Assembly: GCF_014204755.1 (NCBI RefSeq)
Contig: NZ_JACHLZ010000001.1
Coordinates: forward strand, 1,984,001-2,048,000
Source of the DNA: Brachybacterium aquaticum
GTDB taxonomy: Bacteria > Actinomycetota > Actinomycetes > Actinomycetales > Dermabacteraceae
Length of the DNA stretch: 64,000 nucleotides
Reading direction: 5' to 3'
Positions 24,078 to 28,418 of this stretch are shown in pieces (within the stretch, counting starts at the first letter, position 1; every line of letters starts with the position of its first letter). Under the pieces are notes generated by a model. That model searched no databases. It had not been told where the DNA came from and worked only from the letters and a program-made list of their open reading frames with translations. Both the position numbers and the translations under genes were made by a program.

Positions 24078-25092
24078 ATGGCAGGAGGCACCCGTGCGCG
24101 CCAGGGCGCCTCACGCGGCAGTTCCGCGCGCGCGGGCGCCTCGCACGGCGGCGCCTCGCAAGGCGGCGCCTCGCGCGGCGGGCGCAGTCTCGGCCGTCAT
24201 CTCGCGGTCCCGCTGGCCATGGTCCTCGTGTTCGGCGGGATCGCGGGCGGCAGCTATGTCGCCCTGCAGCGCTACGGCTCCCCCGCCCATGAGGGCACGT
24301 GCGTGGCCGCCGGGCTCGGCACCACGCACCGCTACACCACCGACCGGGTCGCCAACGCCGCGCTGATCAGCGCCGTCGCCGTGGACCGGGAGCTGCCGCC
24401 GAGGGCGGCGTCGATCGCGCTTGCTACCGCGTACCAGGAGTCGCAGCTGCGCAACATCGACTACGGCGACCGGGACTCGCTGGGCTTGTTCCAGCAGCGG
24501 CCCTCGCAGGGCTGGGGCACCGCGGCCCAGATCATGGACCCGATCCACGCCACCAACGCGTTCTACGACGCGCTGGTCGCGATCGACGGGTACGAGAGCA
24601 CGGACATCAACGACGTCGCCCAGCAGGTCCAGCGCAGCGGCCATCCCGAGGCGTACCGGGACCACGAGACCGAGACGGCTGTACGCCTCGGCCCTGACCG
24701 GGCAGTCGGGCGCGAACCTCGTGTGCACGCTCGAGGCGGTCGGCTCGACCGCCTCCCCCGAAGAGGTCCGGGCCGAGCTCGAGCGGCAGTTCCCGCGGGC
24801 GCTGGAGAGCGGACGGATCACCGCCTCGCTGGACTCCGCCGCCGGGGTCGCCCCGCAGGTGCCGAACGGCGCCGGGGCGACGGCGCTCGTGATCGATCCG
24901 GGCGGGGACCGCACCCTCGGCTGGGCACTCGCGAACTGGGCCGTGGCGCGCGCGGCCGAGGACGGCGTGGTGCAGGTCAGCTACCAGGGCCGGGTGTGGG
25001 ACCGGGCGCTGCGCGGCGACGAGGCGGATCTGTGGGGCACGGTCGAGGCCGGTGACCCGGAGCGGGTGGTCGTCCTGGTCAGTGGACGGTGA
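24078..25092 (+). pseudogene. Secreted/membrane-anchored lysozyme-like protein, split by a frameshift
   Basis: Two frames together give one protein of about 337 residues. The first frame has a Gly/Ala/Ser-rich N-terminus with three GAS(H/Q/R)GG repeats, one membrane anchor (AVPLAMVLVFGGIAGGSYVAL) and a lysozyme/transglycosylase-like domain (AVAVDRELPPRAASIALATA, YQESQLRNIDYGDRDSLGLF, then QQRPSQGWG). Near 24675 the coding continues one base later: after the Glu of HETE the other frame reads RLYASALTGQSG and runs to the TGA at 25090-25092. An extra base there would explain it. It is either a sequencing error or a true mutation; as written, the first frame ends early with nonsense sequence. Extracellular cell-wall or unknown function. 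The 3' end overlaps convergent pflA by 14 nt. Confidence 0.75.
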
Positions 25093-25930
25093 GCCCCCGG
25101 GCCCGGAACTGCTCGCGCACCCGCTCGACGACCTCCTTGGAGGGAGGCTGGGCGTCGCGCAGCCTGTACTCCATCCCGAGGGAGTCCCACTTGTCCTGGC
25201 CCATGTTGTGGAAGGGCAGCACCTCGACCCGCTCGACCACGTCGCGCCAGCGCTCGACGATGTCGGCGACCTTCTCGACGTTGTCCTCCGCGTCGGTCCA
25301 CTCCGGGACCACCACGAAGCGGATCCAGATCGCGGTGCCGCTGCGGGCGAGCCGGTCGCCGAAGTCGATCGTGGGCTGCAGCTCGCGGCCGGTGAGCTTC
25401 TTGTAGACCTCCTCGGAGCCGGACTTCACGTCTAGCAGCACGAGGTCGACGTCCTCGAGGAAGGCGTCGTTCGCGACCGCGCCGAGGTAGCCGGAGGTGT
25501 CGATCGCGGTGTGGATCCCGAGCTCCTTGGCGGCATGGAGCACCTTCCGGGCGAAGGCGGGCTGCATGAGCACCTCCCCGCCGGAGAGGGTGATGCCGCC
25601 GCCGGTGGCAGTGAACACCTTCCGGTAGCGGCGCAGCAGGCGGAGGATCTCGTCGAGCTCCACGTCCTTCCCGCGCCGCATCTCCATGGTGTCGGGATTG
25701 TGGCAGTACACGCAGCGCAGCGGGCACCCGGCGAAGAAGATGGTCAGCCGGGTGCCGGGGCCGTCGACCGCCGTCACCAGCTCCCAGGAGTGGACCGAGG
25801 CGAGCCGGCCCTCCCTGATCGCGGTGAGGCGGTCGGAGCGGCCCAGCTCTGCCTCGGCCATGCCCTCCGTCCCGGCGCCGACGCGCCGGTTCTCGGTGGG
25901 CCTGCCCAGCAGGTCGATGCTCTGCGTCAT
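25079..25930 (-). CDS. pflA: Pyruvate formate-lyase activating enzyme (radical SAM)
   Basis: A 283-residue radical SAM enzyme that generates the glycyl radical on pyruvate formate-lyase. The CxxxCxxC cluster motif is AGCPLRCVYCHNPD (Cys69, Cys73, Cys76), followed by GGGITLSGGEVLMQP (SAM contact), as in PflA. It is the last gene of a pflB-grcA-pflA operon, 35 nt after grcA. Length and motifs indicate a functional enzyme without extra ferredoxin domain, the true PFL-activase type. Confidence 0.93.
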   Translation of the reverse strand: MTQSIDLLGRPTENRRVGAGTEGMAEAELGRSDRLTAIREGRLASVHSWELVTAVDGPGTRLTIFFAGCPLRCVYCHNPDTMEMRRGKDVELDEILRLLRRYRKVFTATGGGITLSGGEVLMQPAFARKVLHAAKELGIHTAIDTSGYLGAVANDAFLEDVDLVLLDVKSGSEEVYKKLTGRELQPTIDFGDRLARSGTAIWIRFVVVPEWTDAEDNVEKVADIVERWRDVVERVEVLPFHNMGQDKWDSLGMEYRLRDAQPPSKEVVERVREQFRARGLTVH

Positions 25931-25965: not shown

Positions 25966-26217
25966 TCAGGCGCCCTGGTGGAACGTGCGGTCGAGCACGT
26001 CGAGCTGCTGCTCGCGGGTGAGCTTGACGAAGTTCACCGCGTAGCCGGAGACGCGCACGGTGAGGTTCGGGTAGTTCTCCGGGTGCTCCATCGCGTCGAC
26101 CAGCGTGTCCTTGTTGAGCACGTTGATGTTGGCGTGGAACAGACCGGACTCCATGTTGTGCTCGGCGCGGTTCGCCTTCATCGAGGCGAGCCGATCGTCG
26201 AAGGTCTTCGCGGCCAT
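25966..26217 (-). CDS. grcA: Glycyl-radical domain protein (GrcA/YfiD-like small PFL subunit)
   Basis: An 83-residue protein equivalent to the C-terminal end of pyruvate formate-lyase. The radical site is VRVSGYAV with Gly58, followed by the family's [16 protein letters not shown]. Upstream, [19 protein letters not shown] matches the segment preceding the radical loop in standard PFL. In E. coli the similar YfiD/GrcA is a spare part for oxygen-damaged PFL; here the large subunit lacks this domain altogether, so the protein must supply the essential radical. It lies 59 nt after pflB and 35 nt before pflA. Start ATG 26217 has AAGGAGAAC upstream. Confidence 0.92.
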
Positions 26218-26276
26218 GATGTTCTCCTTCGAGGGTGGTGGGGTGTGTCGGTTCTGGTGGGGGTGGGGGCGGCGGG

Positions 26277-28418
26277 TCAGGACTCGGCCGACGGCGCCGG
26301 GCAGGCCTCGTCATCCATGACGAACCCGGCGTCCAGGATGCCGACGAGGTTCGTGACCTGCTCGTCCCTGGTGCGGCCGAGGCCCTGCGGGGTGATCGTG
26401 TTGGTCAGCGAGATGCCGTCCAGTGCGTCGTTGTAGTCGAGCTTGCCGACCGACAGCATGGAGGCGACCATGCCGTGGGTGTCGGCCCCGTTCTCCGGGT
26501 TCGCGCCCGGGGCGAAGGGGGTGCCGGCCTGGTGGCCGGAGGGGAACGCGCCCGTCGCCCGGCCGTAGACCACGTTCGAGGTGATCGTGAGCACCGACTG
26601 GGTCGGGATCGCGTCCCGGTACAGCGGGATCTCCTTGATCTTCTGCATCACCGTGTGCACGATCGTGGCCGCGATGTCGTCGGCGCGGTCGTCGTCGTTG
26701 CCGTAGCGAGGGAAGTCGCCCTCGGTGAGGTAGTCGACCACGAGGCCGGTCTCGTCGCGCACCGGGGTGACGGTCGCGTACCGGATCGCGGAGAGCGAGT
26801 CGGCCACGATCGACAGGCCCGCGATGCCGCAGCCCATGGTCCGCACGATCTCGCTGTCGTGCAGCGCCATCTCGATGGACTCGTAGGCGTAGCGGTCGTG
26901 GCTGTAGTGGATGATGTTCAGCGCCTCGACGTAGGTGCCCACCACCCAGTCCAGCATCTCCTCGTAGCGCTGCCAGACCTCGTCGAAGTCCAGCGGGCCC
27001 TCACCGGTGATCGGGGCGAAGTCGCCCGCCTTGGTGATCTGCTTGCCGCTCACCTCGTCGCGGCCGCCGTTGATGGCGTACAGCAGGGCCTTGGCGGCGT
27101 TGACGCGGGCGCCGAAGAACTGCATCTGCTTGCCCACCCGCATCGGGGAGACACAGCAGGCGATCGCGGCGTCGTCGCCCCAGCGGTCGCGGATCTGCTC
27201 GTCGGACTCGTACTGGATCGAGGAGGTCTCGATCGAGATCGCGGAGCAGAACTCCTTGTAGCCCGCCGGCAGCGCCGGGTCCCAGAAGATGGTGATGTTC
27301 GGCTCCGGGGCGGGGCCGAGGTTGCGCAGGGTCTGCAGCAGGCGGAACGAGGTCTTGGTGACCAGCGAGCGGCCGTCCTCGGAGAAGCCGGCATCGGACC
27401 AGGTGGCCCAATACGGGTCGCCGGAGAAGATCTGGTCGTAGTCCTCGGTGCGCAGGAAGCGCACGATCCGCAGCTTGATCACGAGCGCGTCGATGATCTC
27501 CTGCGCCTCGGACTCGGTGAGCGTGCCTGCGGCGAGGTCCCGCTCGAAGTACACGTCCAGGAAGCCGGAGAGGCGGCCGATGGACATCGCGGCGCCGTCC
27601 TGGCTCTTCACCGAGGCGAGGTAGGCCATGTACGTCCACTGCACCGCCTCCTGGGCGGTGGCGGCGGGACGGCGCAGGTCCAGGCTGTAGGCCTCGCCCA
27701 GGCGCACCAGCTTCTGCAGGGCCTTGATCTGCTCGGAGTGCTCCTCGCGGTAGCGGGCCCAGTGCTCGGAGAAGCCCTGGTCCGCCACGGCGTCCTTGGC
27801 GCGCTTCTTGTCGGCGATGAGGAAGTCCGCACCGTACAGGGCCAGCCGCCGGTAGTCGCCGATGATGCGGCCGCGGCCGTAGGCGTCGGGCAGGCCGGTG
27901 ATGATGTGGCTGGAGCGGGCGGCGCGGATGCGCGGGGTGTAGATGTCGAAGACGGCGTCGTTGTGGGTCTTGCGGTACTGCGTGAAGATCTTCTTGACGT
28001 CCTCGTCGACCTCCTTGCCGGCCTCCGTGATGGCGGTCTCGACCATGCGCCAGCCGCCGTTGGGCATCATGGCGCGCTTGAGGGGGACGTCGGTCTGGAG
28101 GCCCACGACCACGTCGTCGTCCTCGCTGATGTAGCCCGCGGGGAAGGCGTCGATGTCCGCGGGGGTGTGGGTGTCCACGTCGTAGACGCGGCGGCGGCGC
28201 TCCTCGGAGAGGTAGTTGCGCTCCAGGTGGTCCCACACGCGCAGGGTCTTCTCGGTGGGGCCGGCGAGGAACGAGGCGTCGCCGTCGTAGGGGGTGTAGT
28301 TGCGCTGGATGAAGTCGCGCACGTCCACGGCGTCCTGCCACGGACCGGCGGCGAATCCCTTCCAGGCCTCACCTCCCGCGGCCTCGGTGCCGGGGCGATC
28401 GGTGGTGGCAGTGCTCAT
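26277..28418 (-). CDS. pflB: Formate C-acetyltransferase large part, lacking the glycyl-radical domain
   Basis: A 713-residue PFL that converts pyruvate and CoA to acetyl-CoA and formate. The catalytic Cys pair is present ([14 protein letters not shown], Cys421-Cys422), as are [20 protein letters not shown] and the [13 protein letters not shown] region. In the E. coli enzyme (760 residues) about 60 more residues follow, including the RVSGYAV radical loop; here the chain stops at [13 protein letters not shown]. The missing part is encoded by the next gene. A long unstructured N-terminus precedes [10 protein letters not shown]. First gene of the operon; activity expected only under low oxygen. 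Confidence 0.94.

Follow-up and report, generated by a model that had tools for sequence, protein, structure and literature searches.

How can a pyruvate formate-lyase (PFL) work when its radical glycine and its catalytic cysteines are encoded by different genes? This question is raised by a locus of Brachybacterium aquaticum located in a 64,000-nucleotide stretch of DNA, referred to here as the window, in which a gene for a large catalytic chain is followed by a gene for a short glycyl-radical chain and by pflA (Table 1). The initial annotation stated that the large protein stops before the radical loop and holds Cys421-Cys422, and that the next gene carries Gly58 and precedes pflA; reading of the open reading frames bears out both statements, and profile matches support them. 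We consider it very probable that the two genes encode an obligate two-chain PFL, composed of a catalytic body and a separate radical chain.

Table 1. Features of the split PFL locus (positions within the window)
Feature	Position	Strand	Basis or remark
Large catalytic PFL subunit, 713 aa	26277..28418	(-)	TIGR01255 match; without glycyl-radical strand and loop
Codons of the catalytic pair Cys421-Cys422, in ACCVS	27153..27158	(-)	ACCVS string
Intergenic gap, 59 nt	26218..26276	(-)	Holds the interval from the stop of the large gene to the ATG of the small gene, with the small gene's own ribosome-binding site
Shine-Dalgarno sequence AAGGAG of the small gene	26224-26229	(-)	6 nt upstream of the ATG
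Small glycyl-radical subunit, 83 aa, NCBI name GrcA2	25966..26217	(-)	NF008341 match
N-terminal extension of the small subunit, residues 4-18, T-[FY]-x-E-R-L-x-x-M-K-x-x-R	26164..26208	(-)	Conservation and helix in model
Codon of the radical glycine Gly58, in RVSGYAV	26044..26046	(-)	RVSGY motif
pflA, radical-SAM PFL-activating enzyme, 283 aa, ATG at 25930	25079..25930	(-)	TIGR02493 match

The PFL model TIGR01255 (744 positions) is matched by the large chain at positions 1-679, with a score of 986 bits that falls just below the curated cut-off of 994.2; the match resumes in the small chain at positions 684-742. The Pfam Gly_radical domain is divided over both genes as well, with positions 1-65 on the large chain and 64-106 on the small one. 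The catalytic pair is kept in the alignment to E. coli PFL (AIACCVSPM), and the glycyl loop, which a one-chain PFL has in the same chain, is encoded by the second gene, in a different reading frame. The locus is not a one-chain PFL, yet should work like one. The small chain scores 167.3 bits against NF008341 (GrcA2; cut-off 145), and remains below the cut-offs of both TIGR04365, the GrcA/YfiD spare part (79 bits, cut-off 170), and NF038360 (GrcA3; 102.1 bits, cut-off 158), which leaves it outside the GrcA3 type described below. The adjoining pflA gives a product with 299.8 bits against TIGR02493 (cut-off 231.75). The nearest named relatives are Brachybacterium species, and the large chain is 92% identical to that of L050 (DNA, 85%). 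The small gene had been described as exactly the missing piece of a truncated PFL, and this holds in part: it carries the loop, but begins with about 22 residues that are absent from full-length PFL. The large chain, in turn, has a tail of ~14 residues absent from its full-length Sanguibacter relative, whose sequence crosses the junction directly and without the extension.

The genome of this strain, a single contig of 3.449 Mb with a completeness of 100, contains one PFL-like match. The initial annotation saw no complete PFL in the DNA at hand and took the small subunit to be obligatory; a full-length PFL sought across the whole genome was not found, and a Gly_radical search of the same genome gave no match beyond the two at the locus. 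TIGR01255 was also run on 61 genomes picked, from the family, order and class samples described below, for the split pattern or for three matches, so that the following counts are not a prevalence: the split pair was present at one place in 58 genomes, none of which had a second, full-length PFL, and of the remaining three, one had a full-length PFL and two had no PFL of this kind. With no full-length PFL in this genome or in the 58 split ones, the small protein must serve permanently as carrier of the radical, provided that the enzyme is functional, and it is obligatory in the sense of genome content.

In the alignments, the large chain covers E. coli PFL residues 9-693, and residues 21-81 of the small chain correspond to E. 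coli PFL residues 698-757 and YfiD residues 66-125; read in this way, the natural cut is between E. coli residues 693 and 698. A shortened E. coli PFL of residues 1-695 (tPFL) was built by Andorfer and colleagues to mimic further proteolysis at 690-695 (PMC8683613), and the cut in the window coincides with both this protease site and the construct. According to that paper, YfiD binding to tPFL was undetectable by calorimetry, radical loading of tPFL fell 32-fold, from 15.9 to 0.5 micromolar, and PFL residues 696-733 are required for YfiD binding; once loaded, tPFL:YfiD complexes had a kcat equal to that of PFL or above (PMC8683613). In addition, PMC12338860 describes that G734A PFL, which is unable to carry the radical, yields cellular formate only with GrcA present. 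The turnover of loaded tPFL:YfiD and the formate obtained from G734A PFL with GrcA indicate that a separate radical carrier is enough in principle. Judged by the alignment, the large subunit is a natural tPFL and, since tPFL pairs badly, the natural pair must have solved binding in another way. Because the truncated E. coli pair binds and activates badly, function at this locus would depend on a putative adaptation, suggested by the N-terminal motif of the small chain.

The E. coli system of PflB and YfiD/GrcA and the phage T4 protein Y06I share the PFL body, the glycyl domain and the activase family with the system of the window; according to PMC8683613, YfiD and Y06I are the only spare parts validated so far. 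For E. coli YfiD, a separate chain can carry the radical with full turnover, and the same is predicted for the system of the window. The systems differ in that E. coli has an intact PFL, for which GrcA serves in rescue, while the large chain of the window never has a counterpart of residues 696-733, and the small chain has a short conserved N-terminal motif in place of the 60-residue disordered N-terminus of YfiD.

This motif is strongly conserved. An alignment of 53 distinct small chains shows that R9, M13 and R17 are invariant (53/53) and that T5, E8 and K14 rarely vary; the mean column entropy is 1.05 bits for residues 4-18, 2.17 bits for the linker (residues 19-24) and 0.40 bits for residues 25-83. 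The spacing of the invariant residues appears helix-like. Near the C-terminus, 55 of 57 split rows contain the pattern R[LMV]xxM[KRQ]xxR; of 57 joined rows, only that of L063, a re-joined gene presented below, has it. An AlphaFold2 fold was computed for L050 as a read-through single chain, with the inter-gene stop read as glycine, from 31 rows comprising 17 split-type sequences (the re-joined L063 included) and 14 full-length PFLs. In the resulting model (pLDDT 75.2, pTM 0.79; Gly loop of low confidence), small-chain residues 6-19 are helical. The model superimposes on E. coli PFL (2pfl) with a Z score of 46.4 and an rmsd of 2.7 angstrom over 735 residues (model residues 13-814), and since the overlay runs through residue 814, the small chain occupies the place of the PFL C-terminus in the model. 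The 14 full-length rows favour this PFL-like placement and the model leans on them; with the 17 split-type rows alone, no credible fold was obtained (pLDDT 47.7, pTM 0.39). A plain amphipathic helix with a greasy face was considered for the extension and rejected on its low hydrophobic moment (0.08). The N-terminal motif probably docks the small chain on the large one.

We propose that the large chain folds as a PFL body with the Cys pair and without barrel strand 10, the Gly loop and the C-terminal helix, and that the small chain, for which translation is initiated separately within the cluster, would bring this strand, loop and helix. The conserved N-terminal helix of the small chain would aid docking and replace the peptide link. 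Once the small chain is docked, PflA would charge its Gly58 with the radical, which would move on to Cys421-Cys422 in the large chain for the conversion of pyruvate and CoA into formate and acetyl-CoA. Assembly, radical loading and catalysis of the pair are thus predicted steps.

A survey of relatives had been proposed as a check on the gene order, and the same split arrangement recurs in them. With the small protein, 80 named loci were fetched, and 79 of them could be parsed into 48 split and 31 joined loci. The split loci belong to the Corynebacteriaceae (17), Actinomycetaceae (17), Dermabacteraceae (5), Propionibacteriaceae (4), Cellulomonadaceae (3) and Micrococcaceae (1), and one has no listed family. 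In these 48 loci the small chain has 83 residues in 47 cases and 84 in one, RVSGYAV is always kept, ACCVSPM is kept in all 46 loci with a long enough large chain, and the intergenic gap has a median of 56.5 nt (range -7 to 213). The start of pflA lies at most 800 nt away in 44 of the 48; in L072 pflA touches the small gene, L071 stops at the contig end, and no pflA was seen downstream of the small gene within the stretch examined of L094 and L095. In a larger set, 116 of 157 loci were parsed, the others having a match on the opposite strand or one part missing; the 116 include several from the same or near-identical genomes.

At the family level (Dermabacteraceae, by the nearest named loci of the window), Gly_radical matches were found in 23 of 47 sampled genomes, and all 23 have the split pattern. 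Within the genus of the window, 23 of 38 sampled genomes have no Gly_radical match, which indicates that the system is dispensable in the genus. At the order level Gly_radical is present in 180 of 396 genomes, with some full-length and some split forms among the matches listed. In the genus of G747, which appears to be Corynebacterium from its nearest named loci, 102 of 201 genomes have a Gly_radical match, and none scores above 83 bits among the matches listed; full-length PFLs such as L019-L032 score 129-131 bits. Among the matches listed, fifteen of these 201 genomes have a further whole-domain match of 70-83 bits (L188-L197), in open reading frames of 713-786 residues and one of 192, and five genomes hold nothing else of the kind. 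GrcA2 is uncommon in even samples of the class and the phylum, with matches above cut-off in 3 of 394 and 2 of 296 genomes, respectively, the genome studied here included in both. Among phage records the small protein matched 1535 of 50,697, and among plasmid records 143 of 72,556; among the 20 matches listed from each set, the named features are mostly PFL or spare-part genes, and many of the matches are unannotated.

Some individual loci deserve mention. Actinomyces provencensis (L070:5001-7856) carries a partial second copy of the end of the small gene and a second pflA match downstream, which reflects either a tandem duplication or an assembly fault. A full-length PFL of an Oscillospiraceae (Bacillota), L099, groups with the actinobacterial ones, through either horizontal transfer or contamination. 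Varibaculum cambriense is described as having no PFL in PMC4177395, whereas the split arrangement is present in its relative V. vaginae (L077).

A tree of the large region unites the split forms in one clade that also includes eight full-length PFLs, among them those of Sanguibacter, Rarobacter, Tessaracoccus and Cellulomonas. The full-length PFLs of Sanguibacter, Rarobacter, Tessaracoccus and Cellulomonas citrea are the nearest to the window, 79-82% identical to its large chain in local matches; they differ from it in being one chain and in lacking the N-terminal motif. The careful tree contains 69 of 114 rows, near-identical rows and the majority of distant full-length ones being omitted; L038, L054 and L057 were left out of the trees for their short large chains. 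Constraining all split rows and L063 to one clade was not rejected by the AU test (p-AU 0.384, 69 rows), and a single fission may be enough for the GrcA2 type, followed by spread into several families. The branch order inside this clade is poorly resolved: the free trees place the near full-length relatives among the split ones, and Bifidobacterium groups weakly with these relatives in the 69-row tree. Alternatively to one simple origin, the split may have been lost by re-fusion in the full-length relatives. A joined gene is seen in Corynebacterium sp. Marseille-P4321 (L063:1720-4092), where a sense codon stands in place of the large gene's stop and a translated linker joins the frames; the joined gene still retains the ATG and the ribosome site of the small gene, and represents either a natural re-fusion or a single-base error.

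A second kind of split was found in the phylum sample (296 genomes), where GrcA2 matched, with a weaker score, a short frame in each of 12 genomes from two other families. In all 12, TIGR01255 matches a large chain from position 1 to about 665-670 and a separate small one from about 659-665, and a full-length PFL sought with this model in the 12 genomes was found in none. These genomes measure 1.6-2.5 Mb, and nine of them have further PFL-model matches. The eight loci that were read have small chains of 83 to 91 residues, which start with the native PFL helix and have no N-terminal extension, and an activase match lies downstream in seven. The three small chains scanned belong to NCBI GrcA3 (NF038360; 167-168 bits, cut-off 158). 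As at the window, the PFL is encoded by two genes, the small chain has the Gly loop and there is no full-length PFL; however, the cut lies about 14-20 profile columns upstream of that of the window (large chain 1 to 665-670 and small chain 663 to 744, against 1-679 and 684-742), with a separate origin, and the small chain starts with the native helix, whereas that of the window has its extension. In a 48-row tree obtained by a quick search (20 GrcA2-type, 8 GrcA3-type and 20 full-length rows), forcing both split kinds into one clade cost 106 log-likelihood units and was rejected (p-AU 0.011). The rejection of a common clade and the different cut points make two independent fissions the best reading.

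The tails of the GrcA3-type large chains (L223-L230) contain two or more cysteines (CDCC, CACC, CGCC and the like), possibly a metal or redox site. The chain of PDB entry 38lb aligns to the L223 large chain over residues 10-714 of 718, tail included, so that at least one GrcA3-type large subunit has, by sequence match, a solved structure. Another large subunit may be represented by PDB entry 38la, although its chain stops at the cut, so that it could also be a construct. The small chain of L223 matched 33 PDB sequences, the only short one being YfiD.

What the split is for is less certain than its existence. The radical may have moved to a small, disposable subunit at least twice, so that the body would be spared, a docking helix would hold the pair, the enzyme would restart after air by means of the 83-residue chain alone, and the supply of this chain could set the activity. 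This proposal, which we put forward tentatively and rate somewhat short of even, fits with the two fissions and with the separate ribosome site of the small gene. The presence of likely anaerobes among the GrcA3 carriers, as they appear to be, and the absence of the system from 23 of 38 genomes of the genus do not favour it. The initial annotation had argued that repair fits a facultative actinobacterium; this argument is weakened by the independent split in two other families, with further PFL-model matches in nine of 12 genomes and apparent anaerobes among them.

Neutral fission, an account that agrees on the anatomy of the locus and differs on its purpose, has close to an even chance of being right. 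By this account the chains assemble once and permanently, have no repair or regulatory role, and are kept apart because re-fusion is rare. The AU test, which does not reject one GrcA2-type origin, agrees with it, as does the occurrence of split and full-length forms side by side in one clade; L063, joined by stop loss, suggests that the joined form is tolerated. In addition, the ribosome sites of the small genes are no clearer than those of the large genes, with mean Shine-Dalgarno matches of 5.4 bases (56 loci) and 5.1 bases (14 loci), and these similar averages make no case for an excess of the small chain. However, the split form is present in at least six named families (48 loci) and a second, independent fission occurred in others. 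Each small gene has also retained its own start, preceded by at least 5 Shine-Dalgarno bases at 43 of 56 loci, which points to a benefit of a separate chain.

A very improbable explanation is that the large gene is a decaying copy and its neighbour encodes an ordinary spare part of the GrcA type, serving a complete PFL elsewhere. The small protein does bear the NCBI label 'autonomous glycyl radical cofactor GrcA2', and Rarobacter faecitabidus has a probable genuine spare part, close to the split forms, in which a glycyl domain stands alone behind an unrelated N-terminus (L115:4731-5207; 128.7 bits to GrcA2, cut-off 145); the same strain has the full-length PFL L102 elsewhere. The genome-wide PFL and Gly_radical searches refute this explanation for the genome studied here; complete PFLs are equally absent from the 58 split genomes, in which the large chain fits the model almost over its full length up to the cut. 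A short glycyl-domain frame also directly follows a full-length PFL, and is followed by a pflA match, in Silvimonas amylolytica (L105:5001-5457), probably as a spare part inside the operon.

We give equally little credit to recoding, by which readthrough or frameshifting would join the two frames into one chain. Some relatives do have both genes in one frame with a short gap. Two Corynebacterium loci (L076:1256-3577 and L087:2928-5249) have an in-frame TAG and 12 nt to the small gene, and readthrough would join their chains. Nevertheless, the frames differ in the window, the relative frames are mixed among 58 parsed split loci (23, 20 and 15), all three stop codons are used, and the gaps of the 48 named loci run from -7 to 213 nt; from this variety of frames, gaps and stop codons, a shared recoding signal was judged unlikely. 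Finally, an assembly or sequencing error of this single genome, conceivable as a general possibility and already thought unlikely in the initial annotation, has a negligible chance, being refuted by the recurrence of the split in 23 of 23 positive family genomes and 58 of the 61 chosen ones, several of them single-contig assemblies, with the variety of frames, gaps and stop codons also against it.

The small proteins are already known as families, GrcA2 and GrcA3, named autonomous cofactors or spare parts. Our literature search by titles and abstracts, in sources with few subscription papers and no bioRxiv, found no description of a natural obligate two-gene PFL, so that a prior description is possible; the terms 'GrcA2' and 'GrcA3' were not found as whole words in the literature searched. 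The obligate two-chain PFL proposed here would be a natural version of the reaction known in E. coli as emergency repair, cut where the laboratory-shortened E. coli enzyme paired poorly, and its comparison with tPFL would show what a separate radical chain needs for binding and activation. Two-part designs could also aid the building of oxygen-tolerant glycyl radical enzymes. An annotation pipeline may overlook the enzyme, since the large chain does not reach the model cut-off (986 of 994 bits in the window), and no TIGR01255 match over the cut-off was obtained in 32 of the 61 chosen genomes. Our results suggest that the GrcA2 and GrcA3 genes are essential subunits in many genomes.
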